Shown here: positions 1 through 40,086 of the stretch, in pieces
Layout: each line of letters opens with the position of its first letter
How positions within the stretch are numbered: the stretch's first letter is position 1
NCBI GenBank assembly: GCA_021323865.1
Contig: JAJPKF010000012.1
Span: 124,001-188,000 of the forward strand
Length of the DNA stretch: 64,000 nucleotides
Reading direction: 5' to 3'
From: Pseudomonadota bacterium
GTDB lineage: Bacteria; Chloroflexota; UBA5177; JAJPKF01
Position numbers and translations under genes: made by a program
The notes under the pieces: generated by a model
Databases searched by the model: none
What the model saw: the letters and a program-made list of their open reading frames with translations, nothing else
What the model was told of the DNA's origin: nothing

Positions 1-17
1 TCATGTATGTTCTCGGA

Positions 18-203
18 TTACCAGCTGGCCTTGGTGACACCGGGGATCTGTCCCTCGAGAGCCAGACGCCGGAAGTCGATACGGCACAGCCCAAATTTGC
101 GGATGTATGCACGCGGCCGTCCGCAGATGGCACAGCGATTGTGCTGCTGTGTTGAGAACTTTGCGGGTCGGCGAGACTTTGCGATCTTCGATTTCTTTGC
201 CAA
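18..203 (-). CDS. rpsN: 30S ribosomal protein S14, type Z
   Basis: A 61-residue protein of exactly type-Z S14 length, ending in the family's [11 protein letters not shown]-type tail. S14 binds 16S rRNA in the head of the small subunit. The usual zinc site is CxxC-x12-CxxC. Here Cys24, Cys27 and Cys40 are present, but the fourth position is Asp43 (in CRID) instead of Cys. The start is a TTG preceded by a GAGG about 10 nt upstream. It is the last complete gene of the str-S10-spc run, 58 nt after rplE. An ATG at window positions 4-2 could begin the next gene (rpsH expected), but almost none of it is visible. Confidence 0.93.
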
Positions 204-261
204 GCTTTGCTTTCCTCGGTGTGATGTCGGTTGATGCCGGCTTCATTCGCCGGCACGTATG

Positions 262-807
262 TTAGCTGCGGAAGGGCATCCCCAGACTCTGCAGGAGGCT
301 CTTGCCCTCCACGTCGTTTCGGGCGCTGGTGCCGATGTTTACCTGCATGCCACGGACTCGATCAATGCTGTCGTAATCGATCTCTGGGAAGACCAGCTGT
401 TCCCGGAGCCCGATGCTGTAGTTGCCTCGTCCATCAAAGCTGCGGTCAGAAACACCTTGGAAGTCGCGAATACGTGGGAGCGCAACGCTAATGAATCGGT
501 CCAGGAATTCCCACATCCGATCTCCCCTGAGGGTGACGGCAACGCCGATCTCCATACCCATGCGCACTTTGAACTGGGCGATTGACTTCTTGGCCCTGGT
601 CACGATTGGTCTTTGACCGGAGATTGTGGTCAAATCGCGGATCGCGGCTTCCTTGGCGCTGGAGTTGGTCAATGACTCGCCGAGGCCGATGTTGAGCGTC
701 ACCTTCCGTACCGTCGGGACGGCCATCGGGTTCTCGTACTCGAACTCTTTGATCAGCCGGGGAACTACCTCCGTCTGATACTTCTCTTTGAGTCGTGGGG
801 CTGGCAT
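262..807 (-). CDS. rplE: 50S ribosomal protein L5
   Basis: A 181-residue L5, which binds 5S rRNA and helps form the central protuberance. The start [10 protein letters not shown] at 807 matches the family N-terminus. A longer in-frame ATG at 894 would add 29 non-conserved residues overlapping rplX and is not used. Recognisable blocks are the KVTLNIGLG segment near residue 35, the [14 protein letters not shown] region, and the C-terminal RDFQGV and [10 protein letters not shown] stretches. An AGGA lies about 11 nt before the ATG. The gene sits between rplX and rpsN, the standard spc order. Confidence 0.95.
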
Positions 808-832
808 ATTGAATCCGTTCCTGGGGTCCGGT

Positions 833-1237
833 TTAGGCTCGTTCTCGGTCGAGAATCTCGTTGCAGTGGTGGCAGATTCGAATGCGATTGCCATCGGGCA
901 GCGTGCTGTGCCCGACCCGGGTGGGCCGTTCGCAGCTTGGGCAGATGATCATCACGTTCGATCGGTGAATTGGGGCCGGCTTTTCGACGGTTTCAGATTG
1001 AAGAACTCCCGGTCGGCGGCGCTGGTGCCGTGTAACCATGGCGACGTTTTCCACGATCACCCGGTTCTGATCACGCAAAACCTGCACAATCTTGCCCTGC
1101 TTACCCGTGTCGGCACCGGTCAGAACCACCACCAGGTCATCCTTCTTGATATCCATCCGGGGTCTGGACCTGCGGCCCTCGGCATAGCCCGATCGCTTCC
1201 AGACGCGACGTTGCGCCTTGGTCATCTTGACGGCCAT
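833..1237 (-). CDS. rplX: 50S ribosomal protein L24 with N-terminal extension and zinc-ribbon tail
   Basis: L24 is an early assembly initiator that binds 23S rRNA. The KOW-type core begins at residue 28 ([16 protein letters not shown]). The ATG at 1237 forms a TGATG junction with the rplN stop and has a GGAGG 7 nt upstream, so I favour the 134-residue form. It carries an extra basic N-terminus of about 27 residues. The internal ATG at 1156 (107 residues) has no good ribosome-binding site. The C-terminus has CPSC (Cys99, Cys102) and CHHC (Cys122, Cys125), a probable zinc ribbon, as in some Gram-positive and Chloroflexota L24 proteins. Confidence 0.93.
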
Positions 1238-1605
1238 CAGAGCACCTCCGGCGCCAGGGAAACGATGCGCATGAAGGCACGCTCGCGAAGCTCACGGGCA
1301 ACAGGTCCGAAGATCCGGGTGCCACGCGGCTGGTTGGCGTTGTTGATGAGCACCGCGGCGTTGTCGTCGAAGCGAATATGAGAGCCATCCGGGCGGTTGT
1401 ACTCTTTGGCCTGGCGGACAACCACGGCCCGGACAACCTCGCCCTTCTTGACCGCCGCTCCCGGATTGGCGGCCTTCACCGAGGCGATGACGACATCGCC
1501 GACACCCGCATATCGCGCGTTCGAGCCCTTCAGGACGCGGATGACCATGATGACCTTGGCCCCCGTGTTGTCCGCCACTCGAAGCCGGGACAGATTCTGA
1601 ACCAC
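1237..1605 (-). CDS. rplN: 50S ribosomal protein L14
   Basis: A 122-residue protein, the standard L14 length. L14 lies at the subunit interface, contacts 16S rRNA (bridge B8) and is the docking site of silencing factor RsfS. Family blocks visible are RVADNTGAK near the N-terminus, a central [13 protein letters not shown] segment and the C-terminal [13 protein letters not shown]. Translation starts at GTG. It overlaps the start of rplX by one base (TGATG), which implies translational coupling. Two bases separate it from the upstream rpsQ stop. Confidence 0.96.
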
Positions 1606-1607
1606 GT

Positions 1608-1955
1608 CTAGGCCTCCTCGGCCTTGAGGTCGGCAGCCACTTGCTCCGCCTGTATGCGGCCCGCGGATGGCCTCAGTACGGCCGCGAGCTGCCAGGACTT
1701 GCGCTTGCTTCGAGGACGACCCTCGGCAATCCGGACATAGTCGCCTACCTGGGCCTCGTTCGTCTCGTCATGGGCCAGAAACTTTCTGCTTCGGCGCACA
1801 CGCTTCTTGTACAGGGGATGTGGTGTGAGGGTGTCCACGCGGACGACGATGGTCTTGTCCATCTTGTCGCCGACCACATACCCCACCTTGGATTTGATGA
1901 TCGCATGGTGATCGGCCTCTGCGGACGGTTCGGTACGTGTTGATTGTCTAGGCAT
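1608..1955 (-). CDS. rpsQ: 30S ribosomal protein S17, extended at both ends
   Basis: An OB-fold protein that binds helix 11 of 16S rRNA and is a primary assembly protein. The core (about residues 20-95) carries the family signature [22 protein letters not shown] and KFLAHDE, with VGDYVRI further on. At 115 residues it exceeds the usual 80-90, because of an acidic/His N-terminal stretch of about 20 residues and an Ala/Glu-rich tail. The ATG overlaps the rpmC stop in a TGATG junction, supporting this start. Confidence 0.95.
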
Positions 1956-2167
1956 CAGGCTTCACTCTCGACGAGCTCGCGCTCGTGCAGGATGGTCTCG
2001 ATTCGCGCAACCTGCCGCTTGAGAATGCGAAGTCGCGCGTAGTTGTCGTTCTGTCGCGTGGCGTACTGAAACCGCAGATTGAGCAGCTCTTGGCGGGTCC
2101 GATCCAACTCGTCCGCCAGCTCTGTCGATGCCATATCGAAAAGCTCGCGAGTGTGGGAGTTAGCCAT
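1955..2167 (-). CDS. rpmC: 50S ribosomal protein L29
   Basis: A 70-residue two-helix protein located at the polypeptide exit tunnel, where it helps dock trigger factor and SRP. The typical L29 pattern is visible: an Ele-like first helix ([19 protein letters not shown]), then [19 protein letters not shown]. Its ATG lies inside the end of rplP (8-nt overlap), and its stop forms a TGATG junction with rpsQ. The three genes are therefore probably translated in a coupled manner. Confidence 0.95.
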
Positions 2168-2603
2168 GGGCCTCTCCCGTTTCCACCGCGATCTCGTCAG
2201 ACTTCTGGACGAACCGGGTCTCGAATGGGAGCTTGTACGCAGCCAGCCGCATGGCCTCTCGGGCTACGTCCGGCGCAACACCCGAGAGCTCGAAGATGAC
2301 ATGACCCGGTTTGATGATAGCCACCCAGTGATCCGGAGCTCCCTTCCCCTTCCCCATCCGGGTCTCGGCCGGTTTCTTGGTCACGGGCTTGTCCGGGAAG
2401 ACCCGAATCCATACCTTGCCACCGCGACGGATATAGCGGGTGATGACGCGGCGGGCCGCCTCGATCTGACGGCTCTCCAGCCATGCATGACCCAGCGACT
2501 GCAAGGCATAGTCCCCAAAGGCGATCGTCTCGCCTCGCGTGGCCACACCTCCGCCCTTCGCTCGGTGCTGCTTGCGGTATCGAGTACGGGAGGGCATCAA
2601 CAT
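2160..2603 (-). CDS. rplP: 50S ribosomal protein L16
   Basis: A 147-residue L16, organiser of the A-site region of the large subunit. The family signature appears as RTRYRKQHR at the N-terminus, followed by [10 protein letters not shown], the [26 protein letters not shown] block and [19 protein letters not shown]. The ATG at 2603 has GGAGG 7 nt upstream; a second ATG two codons later is less well placed. The open frame continues upstream of 2603, but that stretch overlaps rpsC antiparallel to no known family and is not used. Confidence 0.95.
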
Positions 2604-2646
2604 GAGTGCACCTCCAAGCGCCCGGATCCGCGGTACCGCAGCGTAC

Positions 2647-3438
2647 TCATGATTCCGTCGAGGCCTCAACAGGTTGATCGTCTGGGGTTTCGGGCGATTC
2701 GGCGGCAGCTGGCCCGGCCGGACTTCCCTCAAGGCCCTCATCGCCATTGAGCGGCGCTTCCACTTGCCCATTGGAGGTCGCTTGGACAGCCGGCTCGGGC
2801 TGACGCCTCCGCTCAGGAAGAATGTCGCCCTTGTAGATCCAAACCTTGACGCCAATCACCCCATAAGTGGTGACGGCCGTTGCCCGGCCAAAGTCGATAT
2901 CGGCCCGCAACGTGTGGAGTGGCACGCGACCCCGTCGCTCTTGCTCTCGACGTGACATCTCGCTGCCACCCAGGCGCCCGGCCACGGCGACGCGAACGCC
3001 CTTGGCCCCGCGCTCCATGGCTCGCTGCACCGCCTGCTTCATCGCGCGACGGAAGGCCACTCGCTTCTCCAGTTGGTCGGCCACATTGCGGGCTACCAGC
3101 ACGGCGTTGAGCTCCGGCTGCCGCACTTCTTGGATGTTGATGCGCACGCGCTTGCCGGTCTGCTGCTCAAGAACCTGACGCAGCTCTTCGACATTGGTGC
3201 CGCTGCGGCCAATGATGATTCCAGGACGCGCGGTGTGGATCGTCACAGTGACCTGACTGGCGGAGCGCTCGATCTCCACCTGGGAGACCCCTGCGTTCTG
3301 ATGACGGTCGAAGATGGTCTTGCGAACCGCGACGTCCTCGGCCAGGAGCGCGGCAAAATTCTTCTCCTCAAACCACTTCGCCTGCCACGGTTTGACGATG
3401 CCTAACCTGAACCCTGTCGGGTGCACCTTTTGTCCCAA
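2647..3438 (-). CDS. rpsC: 30S ribosomal protein S3
   Basis: A 263-residue S3, part of the mRNA entry channel with intrinsic helicase function in the S3/S4/S5 ring. [14 protein letters not shown] at the N-terminus, the KH-domain [15 protein letters not shown] block and the C-terminal GRLGG.EMSRRE.R..G motif are clear. A low-complexity acidic/Pro tail of about 45 residues (after residue 215) extends the protein beyond the usual 210-230. The start is TTG. It lies 54 nt downstream of rplV and 43 nt upstream of rplP. Confidence 0.95.
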
Positions 3439-3492
3439 AATCCGTTATCCTTTCTTCCGAGTCGAGCCGGCCCCTGATATGAGGGCCCACAT

Positions 3493-3837
3493 CTATCTCA
3501 CGATTGCCGTTATGTGTGATGCTCGCTTGAGCCGGGGCTTGACACGGCCATGGGCCCCGGGCTTGAAGCGCTTCAGTGTCATTGCCTCGTCGACCTCAAT
3601 GCGGTGAATGGTCAGACTGCCGGCGTCGAGATCGTAGTTGTTCTCCGCGTTGGCCGCCGCCGACTTGATAACCTTCTCCACCTCACGAGCGGCATGATTG
3701 GGCATGAAGCGCAGCATAGCCAACGCCTCATCCACTCGTCGGCCGCGCACGGCATCGGCCACAAGACGGATCTTGCGGGGTGACCTCCGCACATTGCGAG
3801 CGCGCGCGTGGACCTCGAGGTAGCTGCTTACATCCAT
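3493..3837 (-). CDS. rplV: 50S ribosomal protein L22
   Basis: A 114-residue L22, whose long beta hairpin lines the nascent-chain exit tunnel and is a site of macrolide resistance mutations. The N-terminal RNVRRSPRKIRLVADAVRG and the central AAREVEKVIKSAAANAENN match the family. The C-terminal hairpin ends in GRVKPRLKRASHITAIV. Length is typical, with no insertion in the hairpin. It follows rpsS by 37 nt in the standard S10 order. Confidence 0.96.
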   Translation of the reverse strand: MDVSSYLEVHARARNVRRSPRKIRLVADAVRGRRVDEALAMLRFMPNHAAREVEKVIKSAAANAENNYDLDAGSLTIHRIEVDEAMTLKRFKPGAHGRVKPRLKRASHITAIVR

Positions 3838-3874
3838 GCCATCTGGTCCTGTCCGTGAAGGTCAAACCGTGGCA

Positions 3875-4159
3875 TCAACGAACTCCGTGAGTCCGCTCGG
3901 ACTTGGCCACGTGGCCACGAAAGTGACGCGTGGGGGCGAACTCGCCCAGCTTGTGACCAACCATGTTCTCGCCGATATAGATCGGTACGTGCCGCTTTCC
4001 GTCGTGGACCGCGATCGTCATTCCCACCATGGCGGGAGTAACCGTCGAGGCACGCGACCATGTTCGAATGATGCGCTTCTCTCCCGTGCGCTGCAGCTCC
4101 TCGACCTTCTTGGCCAGAGCGGGCTGAATGTACGGGCCCTTCTTTACCGATCGCGACAC
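3875..4159 (-). CDS. rpsS: 30S ribosomal protein S19
   Basis: A 94-residue S19, which forms a complex with S13 in the head of the small subunit near the A- and P-site tRNAs. The N-terminal SRSVKKGPY and the C-terminal [16 protein letters not shown] are diagnostic. Translation starts at GTG, confirmed by the conserved N-terminus. The gene lies 58 nt downstream of rplB. Confidence 0.96.
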
Positions 4160-4217
4160 GGCACTACCTCATCGCTAGTGTTCTTTGCAGCTGCAGAACA
4201 TCTGCCAAGTCGAATCA

Positions 4218-5051
4218 TTAGCGGCGCCCCACATTGCGACGCCGAATGACCAGGGCATCTGATCGCTTGGTCCGCCGGGTTCGATATCCGAGCGTCGGCT
4301 TCCCCCAAGGCGTCTGCGGTTGGCCCCCAATGGGCGATTTGCCCTCGCCGCCCCCGTGGGGATGGTCCACCGGGTTCATAACTGATCCACGAACGGTGGG
4401 CCGCTTTCGCAGCCACCGGCTCCTACCGGCCTTTCCCACCTGGATGTTCTGATGCTCGGGGTTCCCGACTGTTCCGATGGTGGCCATCGCCTGAGTGTGA
4501 ATGCGGCGCATCTCCCCGGAGGGCATGCGCACCACGGCGTAGGTGCCCTCGCGGGCCACGAGCTGCGCGGAAACCCCGGCCGACCGTACCAGAACTCCGC
4601 CGCGTCCCGGCTCCAGCTCGATGTTGTGGATCACCGTACCCAAAGGAATCTTTGAAAGTGGAAGCGCGTTACCCACTCGAACATCGGCATCCGGTCCCGA
4701 TGCCACGGTGCTGCCGACGCGCAATCCAAGGGGGGCAAGAATGTATCGCTTCTCGCCGTCCACGTAATGGAGAAGCGCGATTCGGGCCGACCGGTTGGGG
4801 TCATACTCGATCGCGGCAACCCGTGCGTCGATTCCGGCCTTGTCTCGCTTGAAGTCAATGATGCGGTACCGGCGCTTACTTCCGCCGCCCTTGTGTCGCA
4901 CGGTCATGCGGCCACTACGTGACCTGCCCGCACGCTGCGGTAGCGGTGCCAGGAGGCTCTTTTCGGGGCGGGTCTTAGTAATCTCGTCAAAACCCGAGAC
5001 GGTCATTGAGCGTCTGCCGGGAGATGTGGGCTTGTAGCTACGAATGGGCAT
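4218..5051 (-). CDS. rplB: 50S ribosomal protein L2
   Basis: A 277-residue L2, needed for subunit association and peptidyl-transferase centre assembly. Recognisable parts are the N-terminal [12 protein letters not shown], the [22 protein letters not shown] region (about residues 48-70), and the C-terminal [19 protein letters not shown] block. That block holds the conserved His, close to the peptidyl-transferase centre. Length is standard. The ATG at 5051 is 6 nt from the rplW stop, consistent with coupled translation. Confidence 0.97.
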
Positions 5052-5057
5052 CAGCGC

Positions 5058-5408
5058 TTACACCGCCCCAAAGAAGTCTTCAATTTTCTGGCCGGCCTTC
5101 AGGGTTACGATCGCCTTCTTCCACGCCGGCTGATAGCCGCGCCGACGCTTGTTGATGCGCACATAACCGGCGCCCTTTTCTTTGCGGGGCATCGAGATCG
5201 TGTTCACCGTGGCGACTTGCACGCCGAACCGGGCTTCGACCGCGGCCTTGATCTGGATCTTGTTCATATCGGTCCGCACTCGAAACACATACTTCGATTG
5301 GGGATTGAGGTTCTTGCCGTTGGGGCCGCGGCCTGGCTCCGGGTTGGCCAGGTCGGTGCTCTTTTCGCTGATGATGGGTCCAAGGAGGACATCGGAGGCC
5401 TCAATCAC
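5058..5408 (-). CDS. rplW: 50S ribosomal protein L23
   Basis: A 116-residue L23, located at the exit tunnel and the main docking site for trigger factor and SRP. Family features are the N-terminal LLGPIISEKSTDL, the KIQIKAAVEARFGVQVATVNT central block and the C-terminal KKAIVTLKAGQKIEDF. A short insertion (PGRGPNGKNLNPQ, about residues 25-37) sits between the first helix and the YVFRV strand. It starts at GTG, which overlaps the rplD stop by four bases (GTGA). Confidence 0.95.
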   Translation of the reverse strand: MIEASDVLLGPIISEKSTDLANPEPGRGPNGKNLNPQSKYVFRVRTDMNKIQIKAAVEARFGVQVATVNTISMPRKEKGAGYVRINKRRRGYQPAWKKAIVTLKAGQKIEDFFGAV

Positions 5409-6058
5409 GCTTCACCCCCTGCCCCAGCATCGCCGGTGGTCAGCCTTCGCTCGACCGCTTGGAGTGCGGCCCGAGAGAACACCAGGTGATCCGGGCCGAG
5501 CACATCCAGGAGGTTGAGGGATGTGGCGTCCTTCAGCTGCACCCTGGGCAGGTTCCGGCTTGCCAGCCGGGCATTCTCGTCAAAGGCTTCATCGACGACA
5601 AGAACGGTTCCGTTGAGATCCAGGGCCTGGAATGAGCCGAGCATCGTCTTCGTTCGCGGCTCGCTCAAAGAGAATGCGTCGACGGCTAGGATGGCACCCT
5701 CCTGTTGCCTCGCGGAGAGACCACAGCGCAGGGCGCTTTGCCGCATCTTCTTGGGCATGTCCTGCCGATAGCTGTGCGGCATTGGCCCAAACACGGTTCC
5801 TCCTCCGCGCCATAGGGGTGAAACGCGGCTGCCCTGCCGCGCTCGACCGGTTCCCTTCTGGCGCCAGGGTTTGGCTCCCCCTCCGGAGACCGCTCCCCGG
5901 GTCTTGGTCTTGTGAGTCCCGAGCCGCAGGTTTGCCAGCAGCCGAACAACGGCTTGGTGGACGAGCGCTTCGTTCAGAGGCGCTCCGAAGACGGCGTCAC
6001 TCACCTCGACGGTGCCCATGTCTTCCCCGGCCAGGTTTCGGAGTGGGACCTGTGCCAT
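5405..6058 (-). CDS. rplD: 50S ribosomal protein L4
   Basis: A 217-residue L4 (uL4), which lines the exit tunnel and in some bacteria autoregulates the S10 operon. The long rRNA-binding loop is visible as [25 protein letters not shown], followed by [11 protein letters not shown]. The C-terminal domain contains the [18 protein letters not shown] pattern. Start at ATG 6058, 2 nt after the rplC stop, and a 4-nt overlap with rplW downstream. I saw no L4-binding leader, which would have to be upstream of rpsJ or rpsL. Confidence 0.96.
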
Positions 6059-6060
6059 GG

Positions 6061-6687
6061 CTATGCTCGCCTCTTGACGGCCTTGCGCACGAGCACCATC
6101 TCGTTGCGGGCACCAGGCACGGCACCGCGCACCAGAAGTACATTGCGATCTGCAAGCACGTCGACCACGCGGAGGTTCTGAACTGTCGTTCGCTCATGTC
6201 CGAGGTGGCCGGCCATCCGCATGCCCTTGAACACTCGTCCCGGTGTTGAGCTCGCGCCAATGGATCCGGGTGCCCGATGTCGATCCGATTGTCCATGCGT
6301 CTTCGGGCCACCGGCAAAGTGATGTCGCTTCACAACTCCCGCGAAACCCTTGCCCTTGCTGACCCCGACGACGTCGACCATATCGCCCTTCGCGAATATG
6401 GCGAGATCGACCGTGTCTCCAAGATCGAGGGTGTCCCCGGAAACTGGCGTGAATTCGCGGAGGTACCGCAACTGCGGCCGGTCCTTGAGATGGCCCTTTC
6501 GTGGCTTGTTGAGACGCTTGGTGGAAATGGCCCCCAGCTGGACGGCCGAATAGCCATCCTTCTCGGGCGTCTTGACCTGCGTAACCAGGTTCGGTTCGAC
6601 CTCGATGACGGTGACGGGAACGGTGACACCAGCATCGTCGAAGACCTGGGTCATGCCCAGCTTCCTCCCGATCAGTCCCTCAACCAT
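6061..6687 (-). CDS. rplC: 50S ribosomal protein L3
   Basis: A 208-residue L3, an assembly initiator with a loop reaching toward the peptidyl-transferase centre. The start [16 protein letters not shown] at 6687 fits the family and has a GGGAGA upstream. An in-frame ATG at 6738 would overlap rpsJ and add 17 unconserved residues. The central [36 protein letters not shown] block includes the conserved Gln whose methylation is common in bacteria. The C-terminus carries [12 protein letters not shown]. Confidence 0.96.
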
Positions 6688-6712
6688 TCCCGTCAGCTCT
6701 CCCCGCTCAGAT

Positions 6713-7036
6713 TCATAGCTTGATCTCGATGTCCACACCGGCGGGTAGATTCAGCCGCATGAGCGCGTCCACCGTCTTGTTGTTTGGTTCCAGCACGTCG
6801 ATCAGTCGCTTGTGCGTCCGGATCTCGAACTGTTCCCGGGAATCCTTGTGCACAAAGGGGGAGCGCACCACCGTGTACCGGTTGATTTCCGTCGGCAGGG
6901 GAACGGGACCGGAGACGCTTGCTCCGGTCCGCTGGGCCGTGTCGACGATCTCAGAAGCAGACTTATCCAGAACGGCGTGGTCGTAGGCCTTGAGCCGGAT
7001 CCGGATTCGCTGCTTGGTCAGTGTGCGTCCACCCAT
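6713..7036 (-). CDS. rpsJ: 30S ribosomal protein S10
   Basis: A 107-residue S10 (NusE), which serves in the small-subunit head and in NusB-dependent antitermination. The core [10 protein letters not shown], the [34 protein letters not shown] block and the C-terminal [11 protein letters not shown] are typical. Tuf precedes it by only 9 nt, so the str and S10 operons appear fused into one transcription unit. Confidence 0.96.
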
Positions 7037-7045
7037 ATTGGAACC

Positions 7046-8230
<1,185 letters not shown>

Positions 8231-8320
8231 CCTCTATCTCTCTTTTTCTGGTGGGTTGCGAAGCTCGCCTGAGCGGGCTATCAGAGCACGTTGGATCTGA
8301 ACGGCAGTGTGTGCGGGCAT

Positions 8321-10429
<2,109 letters not shown>

Positions 10430-10528
10430 AGGATGTTGTCGGCGGCCGGAGTCGGACGGTTCCCCGGGAACGCTATCTTAAATACTTCTCTTTCTGTGTT
10501 CGATCTGCTGTTCTGAGTTGGCCCGCAG

Positions 10529-10999
10529 CTACCAGCGGTAGTGGGCGAATGCACGGTTGGCCTCGGCCATCCGGTGAGTATCTTCTCGCTTCTTGACCGT
10601 TGCCCCGACCCCATTGGCCGTGTCCATCAGCTCGCCGGCGAGCTTCTCGGCCATCGACTTTCCCTGTCGCTTTCGCGCCGACTGTAGGAGCCACCGCATC
10701 GCAAGCGCGTGCCGGCGGTCGCCTTTGATCTCGACCGGGACCTGATACGTCGAGCCACCAACGCGCCGAGGCTTCACCTCGAGCACAGGTGTGGCATTCC
10801 GCATCGCGGTCTCGAAAATCTCCAGAGGATTGCGCCGAGTTCGCTGTTGGACGATCTGCATGGAGTCGTAGAAAATACCCTCGGCCACGGTCTTCTTGCC
10901 GTCTTTCATGATGTTGTTGATGAATTTGCCGGCGAGCCGGTTGTTGTACATCCGGTCCGGCGGAATGACTCTGCGAATGACTCGGGCGCGTCGTGGCAT
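10529..10999 (-). CDS. rpsG: 30S ribosomal protein S7
   Basis: A 156-residue S7, the assembly initiator of the 16S rRNA 3' domain. The start [10 protein letters not shown] at 10999 fits the family; an alternative 10 codons upstream is not conserved. Diagnostic segments are [37 protein letters not shown] and the C-terminal [19 protein letters not shown]. Length matches the 156-residue family form. rpsL precedes it by 117 nt. Confidence 0.97.
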
Positions 11000-11116
11000 T
11001 CTGATTCGACTCCTGTGTTCTCGACACACAAAAGCACTGCGGCAGGAAAATTTCCCACCGAGCAGTGCCGTATTTAGTTCATCCTCGACGAGGACGCGTC
11101 TTAAGAGAAGACCGTA

Positions 11117-11539
11117 TCAGCCCGTCGATTTAGAACGCTTTGCGCCGTACTTGGAGCGTCCGCGCTTGCGCTTGGACACACCGGCGGCATCAAGCGCTCC
11201 TCGAATTACGTGATACTTGACGCTGGGCAGGTCTTTGACCCGTCCGCCGCGAATCAGTACCACGGAGTGTTCTTGAAGGTTGTGACCTTCGCCGGGGATA
11301 TAGGCGTTCACCTCACGGAGGTTACTGAGCCGGACCCGACAGTATTTCCGCAGGGCCGAATTCGGCTTTCGTGGCGTCATCGTGCCGACGCGAACGCAAA
11401 CGCCGCGCTTCTGCGGTGCGCCGTCCAACCGGAGAGGCTTCTGCCTCAAGGTATTGAACGACCACATCAGGTCGGCGGCCTTGCGCTTCTTGGTCTGTTG
11501 GGCTCGCCCTCGGCGAACGAGCTGGTTGATCGTCGGCAA
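11117..11539 (-). CDS. rpsL: 30S ribosomal protein S12
   Basis: A 140-residue S12, the decoding-centre protein in which streptomycin resistance mutations arise. I place the start at the TTG at 11539, because the conserved [12 protein letters not shown]-terminus begins there. A GAGGAG sits about 10 nt upstream. A TTG 21 nt earlier is also in frame but gives non-family residues. The resistance-determining regions [11 protein letters not shown] and [13 protein letters not shown] carry the wild-type Lys and Asp residues. It is the first gene of the ribosomal cluster. Confidence 0.95.
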
Positions 11540-11598
11540 GCGAAAAACGCTCCTCAGCAAAATACACGCAGCCCCTCAGGAGGAACCGCGCTCCATCG

Positions 11599-11628
11599 AA
11601 TATAGCAATCCCGGCGCCCTGCAGTCAA
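11599..11628 (-). promoter_or_regulatory. Promoter of the str-S10-spc cluster
   Basis: On the minus strand a TTGACT (11628-11623) and a TATATT (11604-11599) are separated by 18 bp, a near-consensus housekeeping-sigma promoter. Transcription would start near 11592, giving a leader of about 50 nt before the rpsL TTG. It is the strongest promoter match I found in the window. The interval between rpsL and rpoC (11540-11896) holds only this promoter and the rpoC hairpin. Confidence 0.8.
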
Positions 11629-11856
11629 ACTTCTGCCAAGGAACGTGCGCTAAAAGTCTGGACATTCTTGCCAGTCCTGCCGCCACAGGTTCCTTGCATC
11701 TGCTGGCCGTCGCACCCGCTCTCCCGACACGATTCACTCATGTCGTCGTCGGTTGGCCTGACATTAGCGCGAGGTGAAGACGGGCACCGAAGTTAAAACT
11801 CGGAGCCCGGCGCTCCGATATGGGAATCCACCGGCTTGCGGGGCAGACGGACACGC

Positions 11857-11885
11857 AAAGGGCGGGCCCAGCAGGCCCGCCCTTT
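11857..11885 (-). terminator. Hairpin terminator after rpoC
   Basis: A perfect 12-bp inverted repeat (aaagggcgggcc / ggcccgcccttt) with a 5-nt loop begins 11 bp after the rpoC stop. The stem itself ends in three T on either strand and no longer U-tract follows. It could therefore be a weak intrinsic terminator or a Rho-blocking/3'-end hairpin. Its position cleanly separates rpoBC from the rpsL promoter. Confidence 0.75.
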
Positions 11886-11896
11886 CTATTACGTGG

Positions 11897-16477
<4,581 letters not shown>

Positions 16478-16607
16478 GTATGCCTCTAGCTCCTACTTGT
16501 CTCTCCGACTGATACCCGGCATGTCCGGGCTCCTGATGGTTCCGTCCGTTTGTGGCTCTTGTCGTCCGACCAGGTGACGCACGTCGGGCGAGCGGTTCGG
16601 CGGCGGA

Positions 16608-20123
<3,516 letters not shown>

Positions 20124-36870: not shown

Positions 36871-37371
36871 CTAGGTTCTGATTAGGGAAACGACCACGTT
36901 TCGGGGGCGAGGTCGGTCAAGCTCCACCAGGAAGATCCGCTGCCAGCGGCCCAGCATGAGTCTCCCGCCTACTACCGGGATGGACTCGCTGGCGTTGAGT
37001 AACAGATGCTGACAGTGCGAATGCGCATTGGGGCACTCATCTTCCTCGATGTTGACCGTTCGAATCGAGAAGTCGTTGTGCCGGTAGTACTGGTCGCGCG
37101 GCGCAATTCCGCACAGAAACTGCTCCATATCCCGCAACAGCTCCGGCTCGTTTTCGTTGAGTTTGATAGAGGCCGTTGTGTGCTGGGACGTGACCACGGC
37201 AAGGCCGGACTCCATGCGCGCTTCGTCCAAGACATGTGCAATCGTCTCTGTTATGTCGACGAACTCTGGGGCACGCGTCGTGTGGACCGTGATGACGGCG
37301 TGAGGGTTGGCACGCGGCGCTACGACTTCGATGCGTGGCTCCCCGACCGGCGATTCCACCATGAACGGCAT
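36871..37371 (-). CDS. YjbQ/UPF0047 family protein
   Basis: A 166-residue protein with the UPF0047 pattern: a central TSQHTTASIKLNENEPELLRDM block, then HNDFSIRTVNIEEDE..NAHSHCQHLLLN, and GRLMLGRWQRIFLVELDRPR near the end. The conserved His and Glu residues likely bind metal. Family members have been linked to weak thiamine-phosphate synthase activity, but the physiological role is unsettled. ATG 37371 has GGGAG 8 nt upstream; a GTG five codons earlier (37386) is an alternative. It follows the sigma-linked membrane gene by about 40 nt and may be the last gene of that operon. Confidence 0.85.
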   Translation of the reverse strand: MPFMVESPVGEPRIEVVAPRANPHAVITVHTTRAPEFVDITETIAHVLDEARMESGLAVVTSQHTTASIKLNENEPELLRDMEQFLCGIAPRDQYYRHNDFSIRTVNIEEDECPNAHSHCQHLLLNASESIPVVGGRLMLGRWQRIFLVELDRPRPRNVVVSLIRT

Positions 37372-37409
37372 CGGCTCTACTCCCACCGGCAGACCACCCG
37401 CTGGTACAA

Positions 37410-38381
37410 CTACTTCACTCTCTGGATATACAGTTCCTCGGCCGGATTTGTTTCACCAGGCACACGCGGCACATCCTCAGAGGCCGGGAGACGCGCACGC
37501 GCAACAACGCTCAACGCTAAGGACCCGGCTCCCGTCGCGCCCGCAAAGGCGACGATCACGAAGCCGATCCAGGGGATCGTTCCCACCACCGCAAGCACGA
37601 ACATCCCGGAAACCACAGCCCACAGCAGACCCGCTTCGTGGCGGCGGATGCGCGCAAGGTATGTCCCCAGCACCACCGCCACGCCGGTCAGCCCAAGCAG
37701 CCAAGCCGCGAGCGCCGCAATGCCAATGAGAACCGCAAAGGGCAGACCGAACAAGCTCAGGCCGAGCGGCACAACCAAAAAGACAAAGAGGAAGGCCCCC
37801 ATCAGCCCCGCCAGCATGCTCCGAGCGAGGTCTTGACGGACGGAAGTTGCCACCAGGGCCGTGTGCCACGGGAACGCGACCGCCAGGCAGGTGCAGATCA
37901 GCAAGAGCGCGAGGCCGACGGCGAAGCCAAGGCCACTGTATCTCCAGGTCGCTACCACCCAATTCGGCCCACCGGGAGAGCCACGACCGCTCCACGGCAC
38001 CAGATCAGCCCCCACCCTTCCCTCGATATGGACATTCGAGGACCGATACACGCTGCTACCCAAAGCAAAGACGTCACGACTCGTCTCGCTGCCGGAATGA
38101 AGGTAGACGGGCGCGCCAATGGTGGCAATGTCGTCCCGCGCTTTCCCCGACACGTCCACCGGGCCAAGGAGGGACACGACCATAGCACGAGAACCTCGAG
38201 GCAGCACCACTCGCGCGCCTACGGCGAAGAGTGGATGGCTCAAGATTCCCGTTGCCCGGTACGTTTGGGGACCGACAACAACGGTGCCACGCACAATCGC
38301 CAGCGCCGGGATCGACGCCGCTGTCGCCAGCGCGATGAGCCACGCGGCCAGAAATAGGCGGCGCTTGTTCCTCGAGCTCAT
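37410..38381 (-). CDS. Exported/membrane protein with bactofilin-like region
   Basis: A 323-residue protein whose ATG overlaps the previous gene by four bases (ATGA). It has an N-terminal hydrophobic signal/anchor (about 8-28), an extracytoplasmic region (30-135) of short repeated beta-strand-like units (RATGILSHP, GPVDVSG, HIEGRVGADL) that resembles polymer-forming (bactofilin-like) folds, and four to five membrane segments (about 140-300). I do not recognise a function. Its coupling to an ECF sigma operon points to an envelope-stress or surface role, which is inference. A 148-residue upstream in-frame extension is a shadow of the preceding gene. Confidence 0.7.
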   Translation of the reverse strand: MSSRNKRRLFLAAWLIALATAASIPALAIVRGTVVVGPQTYRATGILSHPLFAVGARVVLPRGSRAMVVSLLGPVDVSGKARDDIATIGAPVYLHSGSETSRDVFALGSSVYRSSNVHIEGRVGADLVPWSGRGSPGGPNWVVATWRYSGLGFAVGLALLLICTCLAVAFPWHTALVATSVRQDLARSMLAGLMGAFLFVFLVVPLGLSLFGLPFAVLIGIAALAAWLLGLTGVAVVLGTYLARIRRHEAGLLWAVVSGMFVLAVVGTIPWIGFVIVAFAGATGAGSLALSVVARARLPASEDVPRVPGETNPAEELYIQRVK

Positions 38382-38737
38382 ATGCGTATTCCCTTGTCTT
38401 GCGGGGCGCGGGAGGCCCAGACCAGCCAGCTCACAACACCGACCAGTAGAAACCCGTCGATGACTGCGGGCAGGAGTGAGAGACCCAGATATGACAGGAA
38501 GACTGTGTCCATTCGAGAGGCCACCGCGAGTAACGCCGCGTAGTAAGAGGCGAAACTGATAAGCGAGCGGGCGCCCATGCCAAAGGTCCAGGGCAGAGCT
38601 GCCCAGCAGATCGCCGACACGATCGGTACCAAAACCAACGCGATCCAGCGGTGGCGAGCAATTGCGCGGCGCTGTTCCCGCTTCGCTTCGGCCCGCAAAA
38701 TCTCTGCTCGGAGCCGGCGAGAAAAGTCGGACGACAA
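38378..38737 (-). CDS. Small membrane protein downstream of ECF sigma
   Basis: A 119-residue protein with a charged cytoplasmic N-terminus (about 1-28, RRLRAEILRAEAKREQRRAI) and three hydrophobic segments (about 30-48, 57-75, 80-108). It starts at TTG 35 nt after the sigma stop; an SD is not evident, so the exact start is uncertain. The location directly after an ECF sigma gene is typical of anti-sigma factors. No zinc-finger (HxxxCxxC) motif is present. An anti-sigma role is possible but unproven. Confidence 0.6.
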   Translation of the reverse strand: MSSDFSRRLRAEILRAEAKREQRRAIARHRWIALVLVPIVSAICWAALPWTFGMGARSLISFASYYAALLAVASRMDTVFLSYLGLSLLPAVIDGFLLVGVVSWLVWASRAPQDKGIRI

Positions 38738-38772
38738 CCGCGAATGCTCGGGGTGCTCGGAGCCGTTCAGCC

Positions 38773-39390
38773 TTACCCTGCCTCAGGCGCAAGATCCATC
38801 CGTTGAGCCACAATCCTCTGCCCAAGAAGCAGATGGGCCCGATGGATCTGCGTCTTCACTGCTGCCATTGACTGCCCCGTCACCTCCGCCACTTCCTGAT
38901 AGCTGAGATCCCTCCAGTAGCGGAGAACGAGGACGCGCGCGTACTTCCTCGGTAACGAGTGCATCGCGGCGCGCAGCGTTTCGTCCCGAGACCTGACCAG
39001 AGCCGCGATCGCCGGATCATCGTTGGGTTCCGAGAGTCGTTGCGGATGCAGAACGCCATCCGGCAAACGGGAGACCTGCCAGTCGCGGGCCCGCAACGCC
39101 GAGTAGCACACATTGGAGAGGATGGTCGATATCCAGGTATAGAAGGCGTACTCAGGTCGAAATGAGCCCAGGTTGAGATACGCCTTGATGAATGCTTCCT
39201 GGACGGCGTCCTCGGCATCCTGGGGCCGACCCAAGATGCTGATAGCGAGTCGATACAGGCTGTTCTTGTATCGCTCCACCAGACCTTCATAGGCAGATTG
39301 ACTCCCGGCGAGTGCTGCGCTGATCAACGAGGCGTCCGACGGGCCGGCAGGCCGATCGACCGCCCTCAAGTGCCCAGACTCACTACCCAT
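38773..39390 (-). CDS. ECF-type RNA polymerase sigma factor
   Basis: A 205-residue sigma-70 family protein with only regions 2 and 4. Region 2 includes YRLAISILGRPQDAEDAVQEAFIKAY, and the -10-reading YTWISTILSNVCYSALR segment. Region 4 carries LPRKYARVLVLRYWRDLSYQEVAEVTGQSMAAVKTQIHRA, an HTH for the -35. It heads a minus-strand unit with a small membrane protein, a bactofilin-like membrane protein and perhaps yjbQ. The close packing suggests that the membrane partners control its release. Confidence 0.92.
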   Translation of the reverse strand: MGSESGHLRAVDRPAGPSDASLISAALAGSQSAYEGLVERYKNSLYRLAISILGRPQDAEDAVQEAFIKAYLNLGSFRPEYAFYTWISTILSNVCYSALRARDWQVSRLPDGVLHPQRLSEPNDDPAIAALVRSRDETLRAAMHSLPRKYARVLVLRYWRDLSYQEVAEVTGQSMAAVKTQIHRAHLLLGQRIVAQRMDLAPEAG

Positions 39391-39455
39391 ATACGCGAAA
39401 CCCCACTACATTGTTTCACTGCAGACTCCGATCGCCTGCCACTATGCCCATCCAC

Positions 39456-39485
39456 TTGGGTCTGCTAGTACGCATGTCCTATATT
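39456..39485 (+). promoter_or_regulatory. Candidate promoter of the 195-residue recombination-like gene
   Basis: TTGGGT and TATATT with an 18-bp spacer. Transcription would begin near 39492, leaving only about 7 nt before the ATG at 39499 and no Shine-Dalgarno. This predicts a nearly leaderless mRNA. Confidence 0.55.
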
Positions 39486-39498
39486 GCGGTTGAGCGTT

Positions 39499-40086
39499 AT
39501 GAAGGGTAAGGGAACTCCCGACCCGCCGAGCAGTGACCACCTGCTGTATGCCGCTCTGCTTGATCGTGCTCATAAGGCCGGTCTCCGCCGTATCTCCACC
39601 CGACTGCTGCAAGCCCCCAACGAACATAACCGGTTCGTCGCCATCGTCATGGCTCAGGTGGAGACGCAGGCCGGGACCTTTGACGGGATCGGCGACGCCA
39701 GCCTGCAGAACGTCAGCGGTGCGGCTTCCACTCACCTGATCCGAATGGCGGAAACCCGGGCAAAGGCACGGGCGCTGCGCGATGCGGTCAACCTTGGGGA
39801 TGCGCGACTCGAGGCGGACTACCGTCGGCCGGACCGAGTTCCAGATCCGTCAACTTGGGGGCCCACGGCCACTCCAACCGCCACCTCACTCGGCCCACCG
39901 CCATCCAAGCCTGGACAGCCAAGACCGGCGACCCCTCATCAACTCGACACCATTGCGCGCTTGTGTCGTCTCACCGGGCGACAACCGCCAACCTCGGAGC
40001 GCCTCTCGAGCGCCGAAGCCTCCGACCTGATCTCCCAGCTTTCCAAGGCATTCCATGACGGTCAGAGCTCCGGTTCTCAGACGTGA
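39499..40086 (+). CDS. Possible Rad52/ERF-like single-strand annealing protein
   Basis: A 195-residue soluble protein. Residues 25-100 (RFVAIVMAQVETQAGTFDGIGDASLQN, then MAETRAKARALRDAVN) resemble the Rad52/ERF/DdrA annealase core, where a beta strand/GDA segment is followed by a helix rich in Arg, Lys and Ala. A Pro/Thr-rich linker is followed by a small C-terminal helical module (TPHQLDTIARLCRLTGRQP, SSAEASDLISQL). That module resembles the tail found on many phage annealases and DUF3072-like proteins. No phage genes surround it. The assignment rests on pattern memory only and needs a profile search. Confidence 0.6.
   Translation: MKGKGTPDPPSSDHLLYAALLDRAHKAGLRRISTRLLQAPNEHNRFVAIVMAQVETQAGTFDGIGDASLQNVSGAASTHLIRMAETRAKARALRDAVNLGDARLEADYRRPDRVPDPSTWGPTATPTATSLGPPPSKPGQPRPATPHQLDTIARLCRLTGRQPPTSERLSSAEASDLISQLSKAFHDGQSSGSQT

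Follow-up and report, generated by a model that had tools for sequence, protein, structure and literature searches.

Among described systems, the SigW-RsiW pair of B. subtilis offers the nearest comparison for the locus reported here. According to PMC5358783, residues 3-72 of the cytoplasmic part of RsiW are needed for its four helices, and helix 4 contacts sigma domain 2. As described in PMC7406223, class I anti-sigma domains use helix 1 and helix 4 as their two sigma contacts, and all three known anti-sigma classes touch two sigma domains. CnrY, a class II protein, is a short anti-sigma factor without the two N-terminal helices, and it keeps equivalents of helices 3 and 4 (PMC5358783). The -35 consensus of SigW is given as TGAAACXTTT in PMC6713349. 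Bactofilins are described in PMC12448750 as lying at the inner face of the membrane, with only about 3.2% having predicted N-terminal membrane helices.

The locus lies in a stretch of 64,000 nucleotides that was analysed as a whole (hereafter the window), taken from a genome of the phylum Chloroflexota (G000; 2.96 Mb, 30 contigs, 92% complete). Its parts are of known kinds, and what appears to be new is their combination, together with the outward-facing position predicted for a bactofilin-type domain and the putative shortening of an anti-sigma factor. We consider it probable that the locus is a self-amplifying, envelope-sensing ECF sigma switch with a bactofilin-type partner and with yjbQ as its output. 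The original prediction had placed an ECF sigma operon at 37410-39390, and its gene order, sigma followed by a 119-residue and then a 323-residue protein, is indeed present on the minus strand, with the last two genes overlapping by four bases (38378-38381). At its 3' end the unit runs on beyond that span to a yjbQ gene (36871-37386) located 23 bases past the stop of the 323-aa gene. The features of the locus are as follows.

38773-39390, minus strand: ECF sigma gene, 205 aa counted from the ATG, with PF04542 and PF08281
38378-38737, minus strand: gene of the 119-aa membrane protein, TTG start; putative shortened anti-sigma factor without the zinc bundle
38648-38734, minus strand: cytoplasmic segment of the 119-aa protein with a 26-column profile match to anti-sigma helix 4
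37410-38381, minus strand: gene of the 323-aa membrane protein with a predicted bactofilin-type beta-helix
37995-38285, minus strand: beta-helix domain, model residues 32-128 (the model starts at protein residue 2)
37491-37961, minus strand: C-terminal membrane helices, model residues 140-296
36871-37386, minus strand: yjbQ (UPF0047) gene, PF01894 and TIGR00149; predicted sigma target
39390-39418, minus strand: operon promoter of predicted ECF type, with TGAAAC at 39418-39413, 17 bases, and CGTATA at 39395-39390
37427-37455, minus strand: second predicted promoter copy, contained in the 323-aa gene at its 3' end; TGAAAC, 17 bases, TGTATA

The sigma protein matches PF04542 (E 7.6e-19) and PF08281 (E 6.9e-14), both above the Pfam cut-off, and has sigma-70 regions 2 and 4_2 without region 3, the arrangement that marks an ECF factor. 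Compared alone with the PDB it had a single match at E <=1e-20, SigW of B. subtilis (5wuq, E 7.9e-22), and a profile of 14 sigma relatives again placed SigW first (E 1.5e-50). By sequence, then, it is a SigW-like ECF sigma factor. The gene itself was correctly recognized in the original prediction; its annotated start is doubtful. Because the ATG at 39390 sits within the predicted -10 element, the TTG at 39369, seven codons inward, is the likelier start, and the true start may be there rather than at the ATG.

We suggest that the 119-aa protein would keep sigma membrane-bound, chiefly by contact of its helix-4 segment with sigma domain 2, and that the 323-aa protein, with its beta-helix outside, would partner the 119-aa protein and either sense or pass on a change in the envelope. 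Upon such a signal sigma would be freed, by conformational change or by proteolysis, and the freed sigma would transcribe its own operon and yjbQ. Gene order, the modelled fold, the promoter pairs, the fusions and the loss of the zinc bundle come from sequences and models; the binding, the sensing, the release and the role of YjbQ within the switch are steps that we infer.

The AlphaFold model of the 323-aa protein, made with 13 sequences (mean pLDDT 85.8, pTM 0.66), has an N-terminal helix, followed by short strands that repeat about every 17 residues (pLDDT 92-96) and by helices at residues 140-168, 170-182, 184-207, 212-245, 251-266 and 271-296. In the model the strands do form a helix, as the original prediction of a bactofilin-like protein had supposed, namely a right-handed beta-helix of the bactofilin type with membrane helices on both sides. 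A sensor role for this domain, and its polymerization into non-polar filaments of the bactofilin kind, are hypothetical. In a structural comparison the first three rows were all bactofilins, 6rib (Z 12.5, 2.3 A over 89), 6ria (Z 12.1, 1.4 A over 84, 19% identical) and 2n3d (Z 11.0, 1.8 A over 86), and the rows after them had Z 9.6 and 8.2. These Z scores are a second look at the list of matches from Foldseek, which on its own placed BacA only at rank 21 against the PDB (E 2.4). SV2 proteins, ranked first by Foldseek (E 8.3e-5), gave TM-scores of 0.14-0.18 and an rmsd of about 16, and were set aside as a membrane-helix artefact. At the sequence level the window's own protein had no match to the Pfam bactofilin family (PF04519) at E 1, and a profile of its family had none among PDB sequences at E 0.1; PF04519 does match eight of 13 relatives at E <=1, the best at 3.9e-6.

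The modelled beta domain thus finds its best structural matches in BacA and the Thermus bactofilin. Unlike in bactofilins, the modelled domain has membrane helices before and after it and probably faces outward. We place it there because the first nine residues of the protein include four positive and no negative ones, because the short loops that join helix 184-207 to 212-245 and helix 251-266 to 271-296 lack charged residues of the kind found at the N-terminus, and because many relatives begin with apparent signal peptides.

The arrangement is not confined to the window. The 323-aa protein was found in 15 of the 61 genomes searched, its own included, and in all five other genomes of its order; a scan of named genomes with this protein alone found no relative, and a family profile, at a threshold of E 1e-5, had matches in 150 of the 301 genomes covered from the phylum. 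From the better matches we picked 53 loci (13 + 40) to set beside the window, 54 in all; some are near-identical, with 52 different sigma sequences among the 53. All but one of the 54 (53) have a sigma gene upstream, in the same orientation. Since the 323-aa gene recurs in all five other genomes of the order (40-42% identity) and the trio recurs in the phylum, the trio is not a chance arrangement, and on these comparisons a module of sigma, middle and bactofilin-type genes is common in the phylum. The exception is L087, where a bactofilin-type membrane protein from this family (3441-4361) has no sigma gene that we found nearby. At another locus (L085) an extra gene of 323 aa (2530-3501) stands between the anti-sigma and bactofilin-type genes; its product begins like a lipoprotein, has repeats of short strands and is perhaps of the DUF4097 kind.

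In six of the 53 loci (L022, L023, L025, L080, L081 and L099), which come from three families, the middle and third genes form one stop-free open frame with six hydrophobic stretches. The fused frame of L099 also carries a zinc motif, so that an anti-sigma domain, membrane helices and a bactofilin-type domain stand in one protein. These fusions are the best evidence that the middle and third proteins act together. They also bear on whether the 323-aa protein might act as an output and not as a sensor, that is, a sigma-controlled effector that strengthens the envelope, with the 119-aa protein alone serving as inhibitor and sensor. Its gene is part of the operon headed by the sigma promoter, so that sigma would raise the level of the protein, and the relative at L087 suggests that a protein of this type can work alone. 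However, fusion in three families physically ties the bactofilin-type protein to the anti-sigma factor, and we think the effector role unlikely, if well worth keeping in mind.

The 119-aa protein is modelled with three helices (mean pLDDT 80.3, pTM only 0.39), in agreement with the three-helix membrane protein described in the original prediction. It has no Pfam match, and its only NCBIfam match, to an FGLLP motif, is sub-threshold (E 9.8e-5, 21.5 bits against a cut-off of 150); direct similarity to any anti-sigma family was found in neither collection, and a Foldseek search with its model returned no match. Its relatives are more informative. The middle gene carries the RsiW-type zinc motif Hx3Cx2C in 29 of 53 loci, and a profile of 14 such zinc-type proteins matches RsiW (E 3.7e-12) over the anti-sigma domain, helix 4 included. 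Another 14 of 53 loci, among them the window, have 68 residues or fewer ahead of the first membrane helix, and the remaining group (10/53) lacks the zinc motif and has tails longer than those of the short group. Tails were counted from as far back as the upstream stop codon, or from 20 residues inside sigma; the motif search and the 68-residue limit are simple rules, and the limit was chosen after viewing the data, the next longest tail being 73. With at most 45 residues ahead of its first membrane helix and no Hx3Cx2C, the window's protein has too few residues for the three-helix bundle that precedes helix 4 in class I (RsiW type), zinc-bound or not.

What the short group does share with the zinc group is one segment, F..R....L, the only place where the two profiles match (hhalign probability 95.4, 26 columns, E 1.7e-8 as the value for one single comparison). 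This segment, which matches helix 4, occupies the same place, ahead of the first membrane helix. We therefore suggest that the 119-aa protein is a putative shortened anti-sigma factor, homologous to the helix-4 end of RsiW-type anti-sigma factors. In the sigma tree as in the third-gene tree, the 14 short-tail loci group together as a single clade (100/100 both times), so loss of the zinc bundle in this clade looks like a single event. The earlier suggestion that this protein controls sigma gains support from zinc-finger anti-sigma factors at the same position in relatives, from the helix-4 profile match and from the gene fusions.

The likeness to SigW-RsiW lies in the closest solved sigma factor, in the match of zinc-type relatives to the sigma-binding domain of RsiW and in a shared -35 sequence. 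The window differs in that the 119-aa protein has no zinc bundle and has two or three membrane helices where RsiW has one, and in that a bactofilin-type partner gene follows it. Compared by its published description only, CnrY, which belongs to the class whose two helices wrap the sigma factor and is not known to be a sequence relative, is alike in being short, whereas the window's protein seemingly retains helix 4 alone. An inhibitor of that kind might be too weak, because all known anti-sigma classes contact two sigma domains. It is conceivable that the 119-aa protein no longer inhibits sigma and serves the 323-aa protein as a membrane chaperone, with sigma controlled in some other way, given that the bundle is missing in all 14 loci of the clade and that the window's protein has no direct similarity to anti-sigma families. 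Yet the part retained is the helix-4 segment, in an unchanged position ahead of the first membrane helix, and the gene order is kept in 14/14, so that we regard a pure chaperone as improbable.

Each of the six order genomes has a pattern [TC]GAAAC-N17-nGTA ahead of sigma and once more ahead of yjbQ. The predicted sigma and yjbQ promoters share the SigW-like form TGAAAC-N17-nGTATA, and their -35 agrees with the SigW consensus TGAAACXTTT, which supports the earlier expectation that the sigma operon has an ECF-type promoter of its own. In family f40 both sites are present in 3/3 loci, three of the six sites reading GATATA where nGTATA would be expected. Of 18 sites sought in nine loci (the six order genomes and three of f40), a strict script aligned 15; GAAAC, GTA and a T after the -10 are invariant among them, and spacer and flanks are variable. 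Over all loci the motif lies upstream of sigma in 18 of 53, against 1.4% of shuffles, and a wide pattern applied to whole loci found 21 sites (12 in reversed sequence), of which 19 stand ahead of sigma or just past the third gene. A divergent 200-aa gene (39484-40086), with a sub-threshold match to DUF3072, adjoins the sigma promoter.

Genome-wide, GAAAC-N18-GTATA occurs twice in G000, both times at this locus, against 0 in the reversed control, and 15 times against 2 over the six order genomes. For the stricter YGAAAC-N17-SGTAT the counts were 1 and 1 (control) in G000, and 26 and 7 (control) over the six. A wide regulon was looked for in G000 with the loose pattern GAAACN{16,17}SGTA and was not seen, the pattern having no excess over the control (39 against 45). 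Further promoter-motif sites are present in two order genomes, G003 and G005. That the shared motif is functionless, a product of chance or of common descent of the DNA in six related genomes, with the looser pattern in no genome-wide excess, seems to us very improbable, since conservation among the 15 aligned sites is confined to the two hexamers and a few bases next to them and since, without the six defining loci, 12 of 47 loci still carry the motif ahead of sigma.

The second copy also touches the end of the third gene. In the five relatives of the order, the motif opens with the three bases of this gene's TGA stop. The window's frame runs through the motif, and the 323-aa protein therefore has extra C-terminal residues: its last 14 residues (37410-37454), which have no counterpart in those relatives, are encoded by the predicted yjbQ promoter.

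The yjbQ gene of the window passes the cut-off of its family (TIGR00149, 113.1 bits against 67.75; PF01894, E 6.9e-35). Such a gene follows the third gene in 11 of the 14 short-tail loci and in none of the 39 others, an association with a chance of 5e-9 if loci were independent, which related loci are not. The 11 form one clade in the third-gene tree (98/94), and the corresponding fork of the sigma tree is weaker (84/42). In family f41 yjbQ abuts the third gene and has no motif of its own. UPF0047 genes number three in G000, the other two being at C23:196364-196705 and C7:17888-18256, and two to four in other members of the order. Because genomes of the order carry several, the copy here appears to be an extra one tied to the switch, and it is likely a target of sigma. 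The family match is like that of any YjbQ, and the difference is that this gene appears under an ECF sigma factor. To our knowledge, the main function of YjbQ is unsettled.

Returning to the switch as a whole, we tentatively put forward a joint reading that is possible rather than probable: a bactofilin-type fold outside the membrane would be the receiver of an ECF pathway common in the phylum, the anti-sigma factor would have shrunk to one sigma-domain-2 helix that enters the membrane directly, as a one-contact latch, and the pathway would serve almost only itself and yjbQ. If so, an orphan family, YjbQ, would gain an envelope-related role. The wide spread of the module, the loss of the zinc bundle in this clade and yjbQ as the likely target all go beyond the original prediction. 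In the literature covered we found no account of a bactofilin and an anti-sigma factor as one system; the ECF reclassification (Nucleic Acids Research) was outside that coverage and may describe the group. The locus points to a possible role as signal receivers for bactofilin-type domains on the far side of the membrane. It also offers a natural test of the minimal content of an anti-sigma factor, given the two contacts published for all three classes, and two near-identical predicted promoters link the widespread and poorly understood YjbQ family to one regulator.

Among other observations in the window, weak matches to SecD/SecF, DUF4231 and the FGLLP motif were discarded, all being below their family cut-offs. 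Across positions 1-20000 of the window the AT skew takes strongly negative values (-0.11 to -0.15), and at 20-28 kb it is positive.
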